DNA of 40,336 bases from Candidatus Zipacnadia bacterium. GTDB lineage: Bacteria > Armatimonadota > Zipacnadia > Zipacnadales > JABUFB01. This document shows, piece after piece, positions 4,010 to 39,336 of this stretch. The stretch is from NCBI GenBank assembly GCA_029821745.1, contig JALGSS010000003.1, positions 1 to 40,336 on the forward strand. Direction: 5' to 3'. The position numbers were made by a program, and so were the translations under genes. Under the pieces are notes generated by a model, which ran no database searches, was not told where the DNA came from, and saw nothing but the letters and a program-made list of their open reading frames with translations. The number at the start of each line of letters is the position of its first letter. The first letter of the stretch is position 1.

Positions 4010-5572
4010 TTGAGCAAGGACGGAGCGACGCAGGGGAATGGCGCCAACCTCGGATTTGAGAAGGAGATGTGGGAGGCGGCCAACAGGTTGCGGGGGCATA
4101 TGGATGCCTCCGAGTACAAGCATGTCGTGCTTGGGCTCATCTTCCTGAAATACATCTCCGATGCGTTCGAGGAACTGCACCAGAAGCTTGCCTCAAGCGA
4201 GTTCGCTGACCCCGAGGACGCAGACGAGTACCTCGCTGAACGTGTCTTCTGGGTCCCAAAGGACGCACGCTGGAAGGTCATCCGGAATCGTGCGAAGATG
4301 CCCGAGATCGGCAAGGTCATCGACGACGCGATGATCGCCATCGAGCGCGAGAACTCCCCGCTCAAGGGCGTGCTCCCCAAGGACTACGGGCGGCCTGATC
4401 TGGATAAGACTCAACTGGGCGAGTTGGTGGACCTGGTCAGCCAGATTGGTTTCGGAGGTCAGGACGCCAAGGCGAAGGACGTCCTCGGCCAAGTGTACCA
4501 ATACTTCCTGGGCCAGTTCGCGGCGGCGGAGGGCAAGAAGGGCGGGGAGTTCTTCACTGCTCAGTGTGTGGTGCGACTGCTCGTCGAGATGATTGAGCCC
4601 TACGGGGGCCGAGTATATGACCCCTGTTGTGGAGCGGGCGGCATGTTTGTTCAGAGCGCTAAGTTCGTGAAGGAGCACGGCGGGCAGATCGGGAGGGTCT
4701 CCATCTTCGGTCAGGAGTCCAACCCCACAACCTGGCGGTTGGCGCGGATGAACCTCGCCATCCGCGGGCTGGACGCGAACCTGGGACCGCACCACGGCGA
4801 CAGCTTCCGCAATGACCTGCACAAGGACCTGAAGGCAGACTTCATCCTCGCCAATCCCCCGTTCAACATGTCGGCGTGGGGGCAGGAGGCGCTGAAGGAC
4901 GATGTGCGCTGGAAGTATGGGCTGCCGCCGGCGAGCAACGCCAACTTCGCCTGGATGCAGCACATGGTCCACCACTTGTCCCCGAAGGGTGTTGCGGGGA
5001 TCGTGCTGGCCAATGGCTCGATGTCATCGCAGCAGGGAGGAGAAGGGCAGATACGGCAGGCTCTCATCGAAGGGGACCTGGTAGACTGCATGGTGGCGCT
5101 CCCGGGGCAGCTGTTCTACACCACCGGCATACCAGTGTGCCTGTGGTTCTTGGCGAAAGACAAGCGGGACTCTGGAAAGCGCGACCGGCGCGGGGAGACC
5201 TTGTTCATTGACGCGCGGCAGATGGGCTCGATGATCGACCGCGTCCATCGGGACCTGACCGGTGAGGACGTGGAACATATCGCCCACACCTACCACACTT
5301 GGCGAGGGGAGCCCGACGCGGGCGAATACGAGGACGTGCCTGGCTTCTGCAAGGGGGCCACGACCGAGGAGATCGCCGGGCATGGCTACGTCCTCACACC
5401 GGGGCGATACGTCGGGGCGGCAGAAGTCGAAGACGATGGTGAGCCGTTCGACGCGAAGATGCAGAGGCTCACCACTACTCTCGCAGAGCAGTTGGCCGAG
5501 GGGGAGCGTCTCGCTGAGGCTATCCGGGAGAACCTCACCGGCTTAGGGTTCCCGATGGCGGGGGTGTCGTGA
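4010..5572 (+). CDS. hsdM: Type I restriction-modification system DNA methyltransferase subunit M
   Basis: HsdM N-domain '[39 protein letters not shown]'; SAM motif '[15 protein letters not shown]'; catalytic 'NPPFN'. Probable TTG start at 4010 (ORF open from 3911). Confidence 0.96.
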
Positions 5573-5644
5573 TCAACAGATCCTCGTTCCCCACGAGACT
5601 GGCGCAGGCCCACCGGACACGGGCCGCAGCGCCTACGGGAGATC

Positions 5645-5677
5645 ACGACCACTTGGTGAACAACACCAAGAGGTCGT
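5645..5677 (+). promoter_or_regulatory. intergenic hairpin between hsdM and hsdS
   Basis: ACGACCACTTGGTG-aacaa-CACCAAGAGGTCGT: 13 paired positions, one A/A mismatch, 5-nt loop, 28 nt upstream of the GTG start of hsdS. Confidence 0.6.
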
Positions 5678-5705
5678 CCGAACGCGAGAATGGGGGTGGG
5701 GCCGC

Positions 5706-7001
5706 GTGAGGCACACCACCTTCGGCTGGCAGTATGTGCGTGTGGGCGATTTGGTCGCCCGAGGGGCGCTCCTCATAGGCGACGGATACCGTGTCACGAA
5801 CGCGGAGCTGGCTTCAACTGGCACACCGTTTGTCCGAGGCGGCGACATCGGGGACGGTGATATCTGTACCGACGTTGCCGATCATATCGCTGAGGAGTTC
5901 TCTGATCGTCTCACAAGCAAGTTGACGATGCCGGGGGACAGCGCCTTCATAGCCAAGGGCACGGTCGGTCGGGTCGGGCACCTGAGGGCCAGACAACCGC
6001 AGGTTGTCTTCTCTCCTCAGGTGTGTTGGTGGCGTGTCCTGGACCACCGAGTGCTCGTTCCCGGCTTCGTGTACTATCTGCTGAGGGGACATGAGTTCCA
6101 GGCCAATTTGAATGCGGTCAAGACACACGGGGCGATGGCGGCGGACTACGTCAGCATGACTGACCAGTACGAGTTCAGATTGCCGATCCCACCTATCGGA
6201 GCGCAGCGAGCAATTGCCCACGTGTTAGGTTCGCTCGACGACAAGATCGATCTGAACCGGCGGATGAATGAGACGCTGGAGGAGATGGCACGAGCGATCT
6301 TCAAGTCGTGGTTTGTGGACTTCGACCCGGTCCGCGCGAAGATGGAGGGCCGCCAGCCCGTCGGCATGGACGCCGACACCGCCGCCCTCTTCCCCGATGA
6401 GTTTGAGGACTCCGAACTCGGGGAGATACCGAAGGGGTGGCGGCTCCGGCCACTCGACGAGGTGGCCGACTTCCTGAACGGCCTGGCCTGCCAGAAGTAC
6501 CCACCAGAAGATGGCGACTCATTGCCTGTGATCAAGATAAGAGAGCTCCGGCAGGGGTTCACGGAGAACAGCGACCGGGCGACCACGGCCGTTGACGAAG
6601 AGTACATCATCGAGGATGGTGATCTGCTGTTCTCCTGGTCGGGGAGTCTTGAGGTGGTCATGTGGTGTCGTGGCCGTGGTGTCCTCAACCAACACCTCTT
6701 TAAGGTGACGTCTCCCGACTACCCGAAGTGGTTCTACCACCAATGGCTCCTCCATCACCTGCCGGAGTTCCGGCACATCGCTTCCGGGAAGGCCACGACG
6801 ATGGGCCACATCAAGCGCGGCCACCTGACCGAAGCGCTAGTCGTCGTCCCGCCGGCAGACGTGATCGCCGCGGCGGACGCCGTCATGGCCCCACTGTTGG
6901 GCCTGACCATCGCCAACGAACTGGAGTGCCGCACACTCGCAGAGACCCGCGACACGCTTCTGCCCAAGCTGATGTCGGGGGAACTGCGGGTGCCTGAGTA
7001 G
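5706..7001 (+). CDS. hsdS: Type I restriction-modification system specificity subunit S
   Basis: Two TRD-like halves; conserved linker 'QRAIAHVLGSLDDKIDLNRRMNETLEEMARAIFKSWFVDFDPVRAKMEG' and 'TRDTLLPKLMSGELRV' C-terminus. GTG start with G-rich SD. Confidence 0.95.
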   Translation: MRHTTFGWQYVRVGDLVARGALLIGDGYRVTNAELASTGTPFVRGGDIGDGDICTDVADHIAEEFSDRLTSKLTMPGDSAFIAKGTVGRVGHLRARQPQVVFSPQVCWWRVLDHRVLVPGFVYYLLRGHEFQANLNAVKTHGAMAADYVSMTDQYEFRLPIPPIGAQRAIAHVLGSLDDKIDLNRRMNETLEEMARAIFKSWFVDFDPVRAKMEGRQPVGMDADTAALFPDEFEDSELGEIPKGWRLRPLDEVADFLNGLACQKYPPEDGDSLPVIKIRELRQGFTENSDRATTAVDEEYIIEDGDLLFSWSGSLEVVMWCRGRGVLNQHLFKVTSPDYPKWFYHQWLLHHLPEFRHIASGKATTMGHIKRGHLTEALVVVPPADVIAAADAVMAPLLGLTIANELECRTLAETRDTLLPKLMSGELRVPE

Positions 7002-7047
7002 GGGTGCCCACACACTCAATGCGTAGTAGTGAGAGGAGATGTTAGTC

Positions 7048-7254
7048 ATGAAGGTATCGATCAAGAAGTTCGATGTGGACATGGAAGTCAAGAACAAGGG
7101 CATCGAGATGGAGATACGCAAACCCAATGGGGACTTCATGGGTGATGTCGTTCTGACGAAGACCAAGCTCATTTGGTGCAAGGGACAAACCGGCCGACAG
7201 AACGGCGAGAGCGTCACTTGGGAGAAGTTCATTGAGTGGATGGAGACCCGCTGA
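7048..7254 (+). CDS. small hypothetical protein (~68 aa) inside the R-M operon
   Basis: MKVSIKKFDVDMEVKNKGIEMEIRKPNGDFMGDVVLTKTKLIWCKGQTGRQNGESVTWEKFIEWMETR; preceded by GAGAGGAG; co-directional. Confidence 0.75.
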   Translation: MKVSIKKFDVDMEVKNKGIEMEIRKPNGDFMGDVVLTKTKLIWCKGQTGRQNGESVTWEKFIEWMETR

Positions 7255-7324
7255 TCGGTAGGTTCCACATGAGTGATCGCACTGGTGCACGCGGTGACTG
7301 CCTCCACCGGAAGACACCGGGAGA

Positions 7325-7347
7325 TGCTGAGGCTACACGCCTCAGCA
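7325..7347 (+). promoter_or_regulatory. intergenic hairpin upstream of the DUF262 gene
   Basis: TGCTGAGGC-tacac-GCCTCAGCA: perfect 9-bp stem, 5-nt loop, 28 nt before the ATG at 7376. Confidence 0.55.
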
Positions 7348-7375
7348 AACGCCTGCTTGGCATGGGACAAAAGGT

Positions 7376-9130
7376 ATGAGTGGAACACTGTTCAAAGAAG
7401 TCAGCTACTCCCTCTCTAAACTGCTTGAGGATATCGAGATGGGGGAGATTGGTCTTCCAGACATCCAGCGCCCCTTCGTCTGGAAGAACCCGAAGGTGCG
7501 CGACCTCTTCGATTCCATGTATAAGGGCTTCCCCGTTGGCTATCTGTTGTTCTGGGCTAACGGGCTGCCGAACGGCCACCGCCAGGTGGGGGCAGAAACC
7601 AAGCAGAAGGTCGCGCGCCTGCTTATCGTGGATGGGCAGCAACGGCTGACTTCGCTCTTCGCAGTCCTCAAAGGGCAAGAGGTAGTCAGGGAGGACTACA
7701 GCAGAGAGCGCATACATATAGCCTTCCGCCCCCGTGATGCTACCTTTGAGGTGGCTGACGCCGCAGTCCGGAAGGACCCGGAGTTCATATCAGACATCAG
7801 TGAACTGTGGTCCGGGGAAGTACCGCGAAACCGCTTCGTCAAGGAGTTCATCACGAAGCTCCGAGACAGCAGAGAGGTCACCGAAGACGAGGAGGATTTC
7901 CTCTGCGAACAGATCGATCAGTTGTATGACCTGCAGAGCTACCCATTCACCGCACTGGAGCTTTCACCAACCGTGAATGAGGAGGACGTGGCGGAGGTCT
8001 TCGTTCGGATCAACAGCAGGGGCACACCCCTCAACCAAGCGGACTTCATCCTTACGCTGATGTCGGTCTTCTGGGACGAGGGGCGCGCTGAGATGGAGCA
8101 GTTCTGCCGTCTGGCACGCACCCCGAGCACGGGCGCTCCATCGCCATTCAACTACCACCTCCAACCCGACCCTGACCAATTGCTGCGCGTGAGCATCGCC
8201 CTGGGGTTCCGCCGCGCACGCCTGCAACACGCCTACAACGTGCTCCGCGGGAAGGACCTGGCAACCGGAGAGTTCAGCGAGGACCGGCGGGATGAGCAGT
8301 TCCAGATCCTGGGAGAGACACAGTCCTACGTTCTGGATCTCCAGAATTGGCACGACTTCTTCAAGGCGCTTCTGCGTGCTGGTTACCGGCAGAAGTCAAT
8401 GATCACCTCCAGCCTGAACGTGCTCTATACGTACGCCCTCTATCTGATAGGCAAGCGCGACTTTGGGGTCGACCACCATACGTTGCGGAATGTCATCGCC
8501 CGATGGTACTTCATGTCTGCTCTCACCGGTCGATACACCGGGTCTCCTGAAAGCGTCATGGAGGAGGACCTGGCACGCCTGCGGGACATTAGGGATGCCG
8601 ACGGCTTCGTCGAGCTCCTGGATGGGCTCGTGAAGGCCGCAATGCCCGATGACTACTGGACAATCACGTTGCCCTCTGACATGGAGACTTCGTCAGCGCG
8701 CACTCCGCCGCTCTTCGCCTACTATGCCTCACTCAATCTGCTTGGTGCGCGGGTGCTCTTCTCCAAACTGAAGGTCGCTGAACTCCTGGCGCCGGGCACA
8801 CAAGCCAAGAAGTCGGCACTGGAGAGGCATCACCTGTTCCCACGGAACTACCTCAAGACACTGGGGATCGACGAGACCCGGGAAATCAACCAGATAGCCA
8901 ACTTCGCCTTGGTGGAGTGGATGGACAACATCGACGTTTCGGACAGCCCACCGAGTGAATACTACCCGCAATACGCACAGCGCTACTCGGCAGATCAACT
9001 TTCCGAGATGTGCTACTGGCATGCCCTCCCGGAGGGATGGGAGCATATGGAGTACGCGGACTTCCTGGCGGCCCGGAAGAGCGCAATGGCTGGCGTAATC
9101 AGGGATGGGTTCCGGAAGCTGTGGGAGTAG
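7376..9130 (+). CDS. DUF262 domain protein with C-terminal HNH/DUF1524-like region (GmrSD-like)
   Basis: 'GEIGLPDIQRPFVWKNPKVRDLFDSMYKGFPVGYLLFW...LLIVDGQQRLTSLFAV...VFVRINSRGTPLNQADF' (DUF262) and 'ALERHHLFPRNYL...INQIANFALVEWMDN' (His-Me/HNH-like). Confidence 0.9.
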   Translation: MSGTLFKEVSYSLSKLLEDIEMGEIGLPDIQRPFVWKNPKVRDLFDSMYKGFPVGYLLFWANGLPNGHRQVGAETKQKVARLLIVDGQQRLTSLFAVLKGQEVVREDYSRERIHIAFRPRDATFEVADAAVRKDPEFISDISELWSGEVPRNRFVKEFITKLRDSREVTEDEEDFLCEQIDQLYDLQSYPFTALELSPTVNEEDVAEVFVRINSRGTPLNQADFILTLMSVFWDEGRAEMEQFCRLARTPSTGAPSPFNYHLQPDPDQLLRVSIALGFRRARLQHAYNVLRGKDLATGEFSEDRRDEQFQILGETQSYVLDLQNWHDFFKALLRAGYRQKSMITSSLNVLYTYALYLIGKRDFGVDHHTLRNVIARWYFMSALTGRYTGSPESVMEEDLARLRDIRDADGFVELLDGLVKAAMPDDYWTITLPSDMETSSARTPPLFAYYASLNLLGARVLFSKLKVAELLAPGTQAKKSALERHHLFPRNYLKTLGIDETREINQIANFALVEWMDNIDVSDSPPSEYYPQYAQRYSADQLSEMCYWHALPEGWEHMEYADFLAARKSAMAGVIRDGFRKLWE

Positions 9131-9144
9131 GCTCATAGGGGGCC

Positions 9145-12100
9145 ATGTCGATGAGTGTCGGGGCAATCGACGAAGCTGCTCTCGAAGCGAGTGCCTTGCA
9201 GTGGTTCATGCAGGCAGGCTACGCAGTGCGCTTTGGTCCAGACATCGCCCCTGGCGAACCGGGGGCGGCGCGGGAGCGCCATGACGAGGCGTTCCTGCCA
9301 GACCGTCTGCGCGACGCGTTGGCGGCCCTCAACCCCGACATCCCAGAAGAAGCCCTCCACGATGCCTACCGCAAGATCACCCTTGCCCCGAGCCCAAGCC
9401 TGATCGAGACCAACCATCAGTTCCACCAGATGCTGGTTGATGGCGTTGACGTCCGATACCGCAACGCAGATGGCCGCGACGTCTTCGAGAAGGTGCGAGT
9501 GCTGGACTTCGACGACCCGGACGCCAACGACTGGCTGGTCGTCAACCAGTTCTCAGTCGTTGAGGACAACTGCCACCGCCGGGCGGACGTCGTCGTCCTC
9601 GTGAACGGGCTGCCCCTCGCCGTCCTCGAGCTGAAGAGCCCGACATCGGAGACAGCCACCGCTCGGTCCGGCTACGATCAGCTCCAGACCTACCGCAACG
9701 AGATCCCGGCGCTCTTCCATCACAACGAGGTGCTGGTCGCTTCTGACGGGATGGCTTCACGGGCCGGGACGCTAACCGGAAGCTGGGAGTGGTTCCTCCC
9801 CTGGAAGACTGTTGAGGGAGACGTCATCTCGCCGCCCGGCATGTCCTCGCTGGAGGTCCTGATTCGGGGCATCTTCGATAAGCGGCGCTTCCTTGACCTG
9901 ATCCGGCACTTCATAGTGTTCGAGTCCGACGGCGCTGAGTACCAGAAGAAGATGGCGCTATACCATCAGTACCACGCGGTGAACAAGGCGGTCGAGAGCG
10001 TGGTCGCCGCCTCGTCGGCGGAGGGCGACGGCAAGGCCGGCGTCGTCTGGCACACGCAGGGCTCAGGCAAGAGTCTGAGCATGGTCTTTCTAGCGGGCAA
10101 GCTGATCCAGCGCGAGGAGATGGCGAACCCAACGCTGGTGGTAATCACCGACCGCATAGACCTGGACAGCCAGCTATTCAGCGTCTTCTCAGGATGCAGG
10201 GAACTACTGCGCCAGCGGCCGGAGCAGGCCCAGGACCGGGAGCACCTGAGGGATCTGCTGGAGGTCCCCTCTGGCGGTGTCATCTTCACCACGCTGCAGA
10301 AGTTCCTCGCTGAGCCGGGCGCCGATTACCCGTGCCTTTCGGACCGCAGGAACGTTCTGGTCATCTGCGACGAGGCCCACCGCAGCCACTATGATTTCGT
10401 GGACGGGCTTGCGCGCAACATGAGAGACGCGCTGCCAAACGCTTCCTTCATCGCCTTTACCGGGACGCCGCTGGAGTTGGTCGGCAAACACACAGTGCAG
10501 GTCTTCGGGGACTACCTGGACGTCTACAACATCCGCCAAGCGGTCGAGGACGAGGCCACGGTCCCGATCTACTACGAGGGCCGGCTGATCCCGCTGGACC
10601 TGTCGCCTGAGGAGGAGCCGCTCCTTGACGCGGAGTTCGACGACATAACCGAGGACGAGGAAGACGACGAGCGGGTGAGGCTCAGGAACAAGTGGTCGCG
10701 GCTGGAGCAGCTGGTGGGCGCCGAAGACCGCGTCGAGAGACTGGCCGCGGACCTGGTGGAGCACTTCGAGCAGCGCCTCGACGTGATAGAAGGTAAGGGC
10801 ATGGTCGTCTGCATGAGCAGGCGCATCTGCGTTGACCTCTACAACGAGATCACCAAGCTGCGGCCCGACTGGCACTCCGAAGACGATGCCGAGGGGTTCG
10901 TCAAGGTCGTGATGACGGGCTCGGCCAGCGATCCTGTGGACTGGCAGCAGCACATCCGCAACAAGGCCCGGCGAGAGGACTTGGCCAAGCGCTTCAAGGA
11001 CCCGGAGAGCACGTTCCGGCTGGCTATTGTGCGTGACATGTGGCTGACCGGATTCGACGCGCCGCCTCTGCACACCATGTACGTTGACAAGCCCATGCAG
11101 GGCCACGGCCTGATGCAGACCATCGCGCGCGTCAACCGCGTCTACCCGGGCAAGCCCGGCGGTCTCATCGTTGACTACCTCGGGATCGCCGCGAAGCTCA
11201 AGCAGGCGCTGGACTACTACTCCTCCGGCGACCGCGAAGCTGCGGGGATCGACCAGTCGGAGGCAGTCGCGCTGCTGTTGGAGGAACTGGAGATCGTGCG
11301 GGGCCTCTTGCATGGCTTCGACTACTCGGCAGCAGTCAGCGCGGACCTGGCGACGATGCTGCCGGTCGCAGAGGCAGCGGTCGAGCACGTCCTGGGGCAG
11401 CACGTCGCCGAGGGAGAGGAGCCGCTTCGGAAGAGATTCCTGCGTCACGTCAGGGGGGTGTCGGAGGCTTTCGCTCTGGCTGTCCCGGACGAGCGCGCCC
11501 TCGACGTGCGCGACGAAGTGCGCTTTCTGCAACTCGTGCGCGCAGGGACTATCAAGGTGACGAAGTCTGAGGGGACACCGGAGGAGGATATCGAGGCCGC
11601 CATCCAGCAGATGCTCTCTCGCGCGGTGGTCTCGGGGGAAGTCATCGATATCTTTTCCGAGGCCGGTCTGGAGCGACCGGATATCTCCGTGCTGTCGGAC
11701 GAGTTCCTGCGAGAAGTCCAGGGCATGGAGCACAAGAACGTCGCTGCCGAGGCGCTGCGGAAGCTGCTGGAAGGGCGCATCCGTATCCACGAGCGCAAGA
11801 ACCCGCTGCAGGCGCGGTCCTTCGCCGAGATGCTCAAGGAGGCCATGCAGCGCTACCACAACCGGGCCATCGAAGCGGCGCAGGTCATCGAGGAGCTGCT
11901 TGCTCTGGCCCATGCAATCAGGGACGCCGAGCACCGCGGGGAGGGAATGGGCCTCACCGATGACGAACTGGCCTTCTACGACGCCCTGGCAGAAAACCAG
12001 AGCGCCGTGGAAGTAATGGGCGACGAAGAGCTAATGGTTATCGCGCGGGAGTTGCTTGTGGTGGTCAGAGAGAACGCCACCATCGACTGGGCTCAGCGCG

Positions 12101-12240
12101 AGGCGGTCCGGGCGAAACTGAGGGTGATATGCAAGCGCATCCTCCGCAAGCATGGCTACCCCCCCGACCTGCAGCAGTCGGCCACCGAAACCGTCCTCGA
12201 GCAAGCCGAGCTGCTGTGTGAGGGTTGGGTGGGGGAGTAG
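9145..12240 (+). CDS. hsdR: Type I restriction-modification system endonuclease subunit R
   Basis: N-terminal nuclease region '[17 protein letters not shown]'; helicase motifs '[19 protein letters not shown]', '[12 protein letters not shown]', '[10 protein letters not shown]'; 14 bp after the DUF262 stop. Confidence 0.96.
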
Positions 12241-37467: not shown

Positions 37468-39336
37468 TCACCCCTGGCCCACTTCCAGGAATGCCCGGAG
37501 TTCGTCCATCGTCGTTGCGTCATCCTCGGTCGCAACAGTCGCTCTTGGCGGGAGTTGCGCCGCCAGCACTTCCTTGGCCCGCACCGTGGCCCACTTGACC
37601 GCGGACGGTCCACCCTCGCCACCGAGGAACTTGGGGCTCTTCAGGTAAGCTAGCGAGATCCCCGTCACGCCGGGACACTGCTTGCCTCCGGCCCGATTCG
37701 CCAGAATCGACCATGTCAGCCCGCCCGGCGCCTCCCCTTCGTAGCCGCGGTGCATGACGCCGACCCAGTCCGTTCCCGGTATCTCGAAGGCCAGCGCGCC
37801 GAAGCACCCGCATGACGTGTGTGGCGCATCGCAGACCGCGTGGATCCGGACGCGGTCCAGCCCGCCGTTGGTGAGATCTCTCACCGCCTCGTTAACCCCG
37901 GCCCACTCACCAGCATCGGCGTCGATCGGAGCACCCTTGGGGATACGTCGTCTCAGATCCTCATCCATCTTCTCGCGTCGGGTCCACGGTCGCCCGTAGC
38001 CGCCCCACAGTGCTTGCGCCTTCATCGACAACCAACTCTTGCCGCACATCGGCGGGCGATCGGGGGTCACGACGCAGACGTGGTTCAGGGCAAATGGCTG
38101 GCAGTCAATGCACGCGTCGAACTCGTCGACATTCGCTTCGCTCTCCGCCGCCAACATCGCGTCTCGCATTCTCACGAACTCGCGCACGTCCTTCGCCTCG
38201 GCCTGCACCGCGTCTTCGCCAAGTCCGATCCGCACGCCGGCACGCCCAAGGCGAGGGAACCCGCACTTCAGGCCCGACACAATCACGTCGCCCAACAGCG
38301 CCGCGTCCAGTTCGACCCCGGTCGCCAACTCAAGGGTGAACTCCCCCGCATCATCGCGTCGCGTACGCACACCGGGAAGGTAGGAGCCATACCGCAGGGC
38401 CTGCGCCTCCAGATGGGCCGATATGGCTGGGTCGATGTCTGGATCATCGACATCGATGAGGATCGCGATCGCTCCGGACTGCACATCGCCTTCTACGCTG
38501 ACGCCTCCCTCAGTCGCCCCGGGCCTGAGCTGGAACAGGCCTCTGAGTGTGCGCTCGGGATTGACCTCCTCACCAACGTGAGCCGGATCGGCGGGTTCTG
38601 GCAGCGAGACGGTCTCCCCAGCCGCCGACCGCACACGCATATTGGGCAGGGCGAGTAGCGCCTCAAGGACTTCAGCATCGTCCCTGGCCACAGCCTTAGG
38701 CCCCAAGTCATAGGCGAAGTCCGGCCCCACGATGGCCGGGCATCCCAGCTTCATCAAGCTGAGCAGAACCAGTCCCTCAACGGGTCCAATCTCGCCCAGC
38801 ACCACCATCGCGCCGGGCATGTCGGCCTCCAGGAAGTGCCCCAACTCGTGGTCATCGCCCGGGGGGACCATCCCCCAGGTCATCCCGTACCGCACCATCA
38901 ACTGGCCATAGTAGATCGCGCCTGTCTCCCGTTCGGGAAGCGCGTGGTCAGCCTGCGCCCCGCGAGCGGCGGAGAAGATCATGTACTGATTGGCCTTAAG
39001 GAGCTCGACCGTTTCATCCGTGATCTTGCTCCCGGCCAGCAGCACCCAACCCGCGCGCCATTTGGCTCCGCCGAAGACCGCTCCACGGACGCTCGCGTCG
39101 TCCATGAAGTACGCGTCCCGGTCAGCCGCGATGGACTCAATCATCTCGGCCGCCAGGGCCACTGGCTCAAGAGATGACTTCAGGTCATCCGCCTCGATCA
39201 ACCACTCGCGCAGCTCGTCAGGGCCGATGTCACGCCCGAGAAGCGCACCCATCACGGGCATCGGGTACTCGGAACCATCGAAGGCTTGGGGCTGATCAGG
39301 CAGCGCGTCGGCTAACCAGTGGATCGCGTGCTGCAT
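37468..39336 (-). CDS. acetyl-CoA synthase beta-subunit homologue (CODH/ACS, AcsB/CdhC-like)
   Basis: 'CIDCQPFALNHVCVVTPDRPPMCG' (Cys at +0,+3,+12,+22, 38110 down to 38044) and 'TSCGCFGALAFEIPGTDWVGVMHRGYEGEAPGGLTWSILANRAGGKQCPGVTGISLAYLKSPKFLGGEGGPSAVKW' (CxC, 37804-37812); N-terminal 'GAMVVLGEIGPVEGLVLLSLMKLGCPAIVGPDF' resembles bacterial ACS. Confidence 0.85.
   Translation of the reverse strand: MQHAIHWLADALPDQPQAFDGSEYPMPVMGALLGRDIGPDELREWLIEADDLKSSLEPVALAAEMIESIAADRDAYFMDDASVRGAVFGGAKWRAGWVLLAGSKITDETVELLKANQYMIFSAARGAQADHALPERETGAIYYGQLMVRYGMTWGMVPPGDDHELGHFLEADMPGAMVVLGEIGPVEGLVLLSLMKLGCPAIVGPDFAYDLGPKAVARDDAEVLEALLALPNMRVRSAAGETVSLPEPADPAHVGEEVNPERTLRGLFQLRPGATEGGVSVEGDVQSGAIAILIDVDDPDIDPAISAHLEAQALRYGSYLPGVRTRRDDAGEFTLELATGVELDAALLGDVIVSGLKCGFPRLGRAGVRIGLGEDAVQAEAKDVREFVRMRDAMLAAESEANVDEFDACIDCQPFALNHVCVVTPDRPPMCGKSWLSMKAQALWGGYGRPWTRREKMDEDLRRRIPKGAPIDADAGEWAGVNEAVRDLTNGGLDRVRIHAVCDAPHTSCGCFGALAFEIPGTDWVGVMHRGYEGEAPGGLTWSILANRAGGKQCPGVTGISLAYLKSPKFLGGEGGPSAVKWATVRAKEVLAAQLPPRATVATEDDATTMDELRAFLEVGQG

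Follow-up and report, generated by a model that had tools for sequence, protein, structure and literature searches.

Acetyl-CoA synthase (ACS) is a nickel-iron-sulfur enzyme that joins one-carbon units. The origin of its bacterial form AcsB (CODH/ACS alpha) and its archaeal form CdhC (ACDS beta) is central to ideas on early carbon fixation, and to our knowledge there is no kind of A-cluster protein besides these two. The A-cluster ligands of Moorella ACS, which we take to be C506, C509, C518, C528, C595 and C597, are spaced at +0/+3/+12/+22/+89/+91, and F512 of the enzyme is described as highly conserved.

Roles have been assigned to the hinge glycine and the plug residue of the ACS gating helix, and CoA has been reported in contact with the middle domain (PMC12289521). 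The roles of the residues that form the CO alcove have also been described (PMC11321310, PMC11474084); Arg142 bonds the glycine of the CxC motif (PMC11474084), and the exchange F229W in Moorella ACS raises CO affinity about 80-fold, to nanomolar (PMC11321310). The monomeric ACS of Carboxydothermus and the CODH-free AcsB of Dehalococcoides are precedents for an ACS without a bound or encoded CODH; they differ from the protein described here in being ordinary AcsB proteins that work with CFeSP and CoA. That protein is encoded in a contig of 40,336 nucleotides from Candidatus Zipacnadia bacterium (Armatimonadota), the whole of which is hereafter called the window. We refer to the protein and its relatives as the short-ACS family, of which we found no description in the literature searched, although papers beyond that search could exist.

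Results

The short-ACS gene lies at 37468..39336 on the minus strand of the window (the features of the gene given below are all on this strand) and is an intact open reading frame for a divergent, stand-alone ACS-type protein of 622 aa, with an ATG start and a GAGG-type ribosome-binding sequence upstream of it. The product matches PF19436 (ACS/CODH beta C-terminal) with an E-value of 2.4e-42 and PDB chains of ACS with E-values down to 1.1e-46, and in a residue tally the six Cys and the Gly of the CxC are invariant among ten family members, 31 bacterial AcsB and 20 archaeal CdhC. Such agreement is not due to chance, and the homology of the window protein to ACS is certain.

Alignment to Moorella ACS places four ligands at C409, C412, C421 and C431 (38044..38112), and within the same stretch F415 corresponds to the alcove residue F512, which thus remains a Phe in the family; all five residues are unchanged in 10/10 members. 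The other two ligands belong to C509-G510-C511 (37804..37812), equivalent to C595-G596-C597 and present without exception in the family, in AcsB and in CdhC. The spacing, +0/+3/+12/+22/+100/+102, bears out the original prediction, which had read +0/+3/+12/+22 followed by a CxC, and its placing of the CxC 11 residues later than in Moorella ACS is exact. Between C431 and the CxC the family has an insert of its own, RPWTRR (37975..37992, from family alignments A2/A3), which accounts for this shift. Its P450 and R453 are nearly invariant in alignment A3, and the R453 column is a gap in 31/31 AcsB and 20/20 CdhC. H506, which precedes the CxC, and G526 are shared with the archaeal sequences and not with AcsB. 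Pseudogene decay was rejected, since ten diverged sequences (most pairs 31-46% identical) retain all ligands.

The protein is shorter than AcsB (622 versus about 740 aa) and differs from it in domain signatures. AcsB matches PF18537, PF03598 and PF19436, whereas the ten short-ACS members match PF19436 only: none of the ten matches PF18537, the bacterial form of the N-terminal helical domain (AcsB controls, 7e-24 and 1e-23), and none matches the middle-domain model PF03598 (controls, E 3.6e-67 to 5.2e-48), which strongly matches AcsB, CdhC and the Woesearchaeota ACS. Against the NCBIfam ACS models the window protein scores 211 (cdhC) and 202 (CODH_ACS_al_bet) bits, with E-values of 1e-59 to 1e-65, far under the cut-offs of 356 and 800 bits; AcsB controls reach 443-478 and about 988 bits with the same models, and AcsB and CdhC controls each surpass the cut-offs of their own models. 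Judged from its sequence, the window protein seems to have lost the recognised regions for the usual partner enzyme and for CoA.

A comparison of the short-ACS family with AcsB by hhalign covers 599 columns (Prob 100, E 4.5e-66), and thus the N-terminal Rossmann domain is homologous to that of ACS, though unseen by Pfam. When the AF2 model of the window protein (pLDDT 88.9, pTM 0.81) was compared with the PDB by Foldseek, the best matches were all ACS (1.1e-41, TM up to 0.66), with TM about 0.65 for several closed-state entries. These results show that the full-length ACS fold, with all three domains, is retained in the family, the N-terminal helical domain being truncated and carrying deletions.

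The middle domain has changed at conserved positions. In the stretch formed by residues 325-336 (38329..38364), the residue tally shows all four of the invariant AcsB/CdhC residues H, R, W and R to be replaced (H430, R434, W438 and R440 in P0006 numbering: 0/10 in the family versus 31/31 AcsB and 20/20 CdhC). Among the columns invariant in AcsB and CdhC, those kept in 10/10 members are the six Cys, the CxC Gly, P425, R427, N482, P505, R530 and W582. Invariants new to the family include K92, W97, N232, R234, R453, W542 and the His pair H163xxxH167 (38836..38850), which alignment shows to be absent from AcsB and which is a possible candidate for a new ligand or substrate site.

The surroundings of the CO alcove are likewise remodelled. 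By hhalign and residue tally, residues 80-91 (39064..39099) are the equivalent of the ACS gating helix, where R84 corresponds to R142, V87 to the hinge G145, F88 to I146, G90 to the plug position 148 and A91 to V149. The hinge Gly is replaced by Val and the plug position by Gly in all ten members, while Arg is found at the R142 position in seven and Gln in three. W154 (38875..38877) stands at the place of alcove F229 according to the Moorella alignment, hhalign and the tally. This position stays aromatic, with W in 7/10 and Y in 3/10 members versus F in 29/31 and Y in 2/31 AcsB. In Moorella numbering, the changes of the alcove are G145V (10/10), I146F (9/10, V in one), V149A/S/I (10/10) and F229W/Y (10/10). 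In the canonical AcsB sampled, the alcove position F512 is a Tyr in 21/31, mostly from Armatimonadota.

The F229W precedent (PMC11321310) makes the short-ACS family a candidate for high-affinity CO binding; a pocket made tighter by the combination of W, V and F could also shut out CO. With a Trp or Tyr at F229, where F229W confers nanomolar CO affinity (PMC11321310), the conserved middle-domain motif lost, and copies residing mostly in genomes that also have CO-handling pathways, the protein might be envisaged as a CO sensor or scavenger whose A-cluster binds CO tightly with no net C-C chemistry. We consider this role quite improbable, given that the full three-domain ACS architecture is retained and that neither an output domain nor an adjacent regulator is conserved across loci.

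A phylogeny with AcsB and CdhC, which the original prediction had named as a check, was calculated as an unrooted tree of the ten family members, 31 bacterial AcsB, 20 archaeal CdhC and one Woesearchaeota ACS. The window protein does not fall inside AcsB: the ten short-ACS sequences form one clade on a long branch, outside both AcsB and CdhC, with ultrafast bootstrap/SH-aLRT values of 100/100, and the AcsB clade is equally supported (100/100). Identity between the family and AcsB is 21-27%. The window protein is thus placed by its sequence as a member of a third, deeply separate ACS-type lineage, where third means separate from AcsB and CdhC and not older than either, the tree being unrooted. 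With CdhC the family shares the A-cluster domain with all its Cys; unlike CdhC it has an AcsB-like N-terminal domain and lacks the CdhC middle-domain motif. The N-terminal domain that it has in common with AcsB suggests that the short-ACS family may be closer kin to bacterial ACS.

Other unusual ACS genes were seen. A Woesearchaeota genome (G298) encodes a 665-aa ACS with a bacterial-type N-terminal domain (L075, 9920-11914) together with CFeSP-type genes; no prismane-fold CODH was found in this genome, a possible case of a CODH-free ACS in an archaeon. In G064:C55, G077:C19 and G103:C602, ACS matches lie inside open frames of 1129-1284 aa, which are possible fusions or read-through.

The family was searched for in 151 relatives, 291 genomes of the phylum and 85,462 species genomes, by a scan that relies on conserved peptides and may miss more divergent members. 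Ten full-length members (about 620 aa) were obtained, window copy included: Armatimonadota contributes four, of which two are Hebobacteria, and a single member comes from each of Planctomycetota, Sumerlaeota, Nitrospirota, Dehalococcoidales, another Chloroflexota and Bacillota. An eleventh copy, from Planctomycetota (L047 929-2038, genome G297), lacks most of the N-terminal half through an in-frame deletion; it is 93% identical to L039 elsewhere, and the deletion is either real or a misassembly.

The original prediction had proposed horizontal acquisition. The rarity and very patchy spread of the family (4/291 genomes of the phylum; 1/400 in a draw of Chloroflexota genomes, the one match being the query's own genome) agrees with it, and the Sumerlaeota and Nitrospirota copies, 72% identical across phyla, indicate horizontal transfer within the family; for the window copy itself, however, the nearest relative is found in the same order. 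Its GC3 of 0.77, slightly lower than the 0.82-0.94 of its neighbours, lends weak support to a foreign origin. Carriage by viruses or plasmids was rejected, as viral contigs held no relative and the plasmid collection gave one partial match, in one record.

The window spans the whole of contig C30, one of 1168 in a 7.0 Mb assembly that is 88% complete and has 6.5% contamination. As had been predicted, no Wood-Ljungdahl gene occurs among the window genes scanned, and the description of the neighbours as carbohydrate-active and mobile is broadly right: they include DUF4838+CBM9, PQQ/malectin and FG-GAP proteins, an IS3-type integrase and a type I RM system with a GmrSD protein. The latter region (4010-12240) holds HsdM, HsdS and HsdR with an inserted GmrSD/DUF262-type gene and forms a small defence island; at the contig edge, 6-1052 (minus strand) encodes a DnaG-type CHC2 zinc ribbon protein, perhaps derived from a mobile element.

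Partner genes were sought in the window genome by family searches, which found no second ACS C-terminal domain, no ACS/CdhC middle domain, no CFeSP-type PF03599 and no CODH. The sole prismane-fold match was rejected as a CODH, its N-terminus (MSMFCYQCEQTSGGTGCT) being that of a hybrid-cluster protein. FTHFS is present in this genome and also in three genomes of the same taxonomic family (85-98% complete) that have no ACS of any kind, and is therefore uninformative on the pathway.

An orphan state of this sort could be an artefact, with the contig misplaced or an acs cluster missing from a fragmented MAG, the more so as acs genes are usually clustered and could all be missed at once. This explanation is very unlikely: the three genomes of the same taxonomic family likewise lack ACS, and the Sumerlaeota genome G292 repeats the pattern, with no AcsB, CFeSP or CODH found and a hybrid-cluster protein as its prismane-fold match. 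Misbinning of the contig is also unlikely, since the best matches (56-69%) of a 1481-aa neighbour gene come from genomes of the same order and the tetranucleotide profile of the contig agrees with the genome. The separate-lineage result is independent of this question.

Whereas the window genome supports the idea of an orphan ACS put forward originally, across the family the gene mostly occurs alongside the pathway: 9/10 other genomes with a full-length or deleted copy (eleven in all, window genome included) have both an ordinary AcsB and CFeSP genes of the CdhD type, and most of these also have a CODH-size prismane protein. In G005, G067 and G121, AcsB is part of a normal acs cluster, with the short-ACS gene located elsewhere, and in the loci examined the gene is outside acs clusters. 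Short-ACS tends to accompany the pathway without being part of its operons, and can apparently occur without it.

The protein may accordingly serve the normal pathway, as a second ACS that has kept the synthesis or cleavage of acetyl-CoA with free CO and a methylated corrinoid protein, on the model of the Carboxydothermus or Dehalococcoides enzyme. Such an isozyme would suit the frequent co-occurrence with AcsB and CFeSP-type genes, the retained A3 core and alcove Phe, and the finding that D. mccartyi AcsB cleaves acetyl-CoA without CODH (PMC7005905). We nevertheless hold it to be unlikely, because 10/10 members have lost middle-domain residues that never vary in AcsB and CdhC, no CFeSP gene was detected in the window genome or G292, and the gene stands apart from the acs clusters in the loci examined.

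Gene neighbourhoods are not conserved across family loci, except in the near-identical pairs of close relatives L004/L034 and L039/L047, and thus genomic context gives almost no functional hint. In one locus (L044), a gene resembling the catalytic chain of ferredoxin:thioredoxin reductase (FTR) overlaps the short-ACS stop by 4 bp and is followed by thioredoxin, a pair that would suit a cluster in need of thiol or ferredoxin reduction. A putative metal-chelation gene (DUF364) lying upstream of short-ACS was likewise seen once (L040). Set aside as single cases were the URO-D genes beside L039 and an arsenic/thioredoxin island next to short-ACS in L033 (2167-7117), with ArsR, an ArsP-type permease, DGC, three thioredoxin-like proteins, a DsbD-type membrane protein and a truncated SBF-family transporter.

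Discussion

We propose, with a probability of roughly 0.5, that short-ACS acts as a stand-alone A-cluster protein, using free CO with no CODH involved and delivering its product to something other than CoA bound in the canonical way. The stand-alone part is favoured by the window genome and G292, which carry short-ACS with no AcsB, CFeSP or CODH found; the non-CoA acceptor is favoured by the loss of the middle-domain H, R, W and R in all members, together with the CoA contact reported for that domain (PMC12289521). A Ni-Ni-[4Fe-4S] A-cluster would be assembled on the six Cys, and free CO would be bound without a CODH tunnel, the hinge Gly and plug residue being gone and the F229 wall formed by Trp or Tyr. 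A Ni-carbonyl or Ni-acyl intermediate may then be made with a methyl donor and handed on to an acceptor that is not CoA held at the usual site in the middle domain; the simplest guess for this acceptor is a thiol, either small or on a protein.

The original prediction that the protein may be an ACS repurposed for new chemistry gains support from the lost domain signatures and the remodelled pocket. More tentatively, several bacterial phyla may possess a natural A-cluster enzyme that carbonylates or acylates a non-CoA acceptor from free CO, independently of CODH and CFeSP.

A match to 'acetyl-CoA synthase' confined to the C-terminal domain is no proof of a Wood-Ljungdahl pathway in a genome. 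As a third lineage with the same ligands, a different pocket and no CODH, the short-ACS family shows which parts of ACS the A-cluster itself needs. It also offers natural variation in the CO alcove, a feature under current study, and a new nickel-carbon reaction may be hidden in it.
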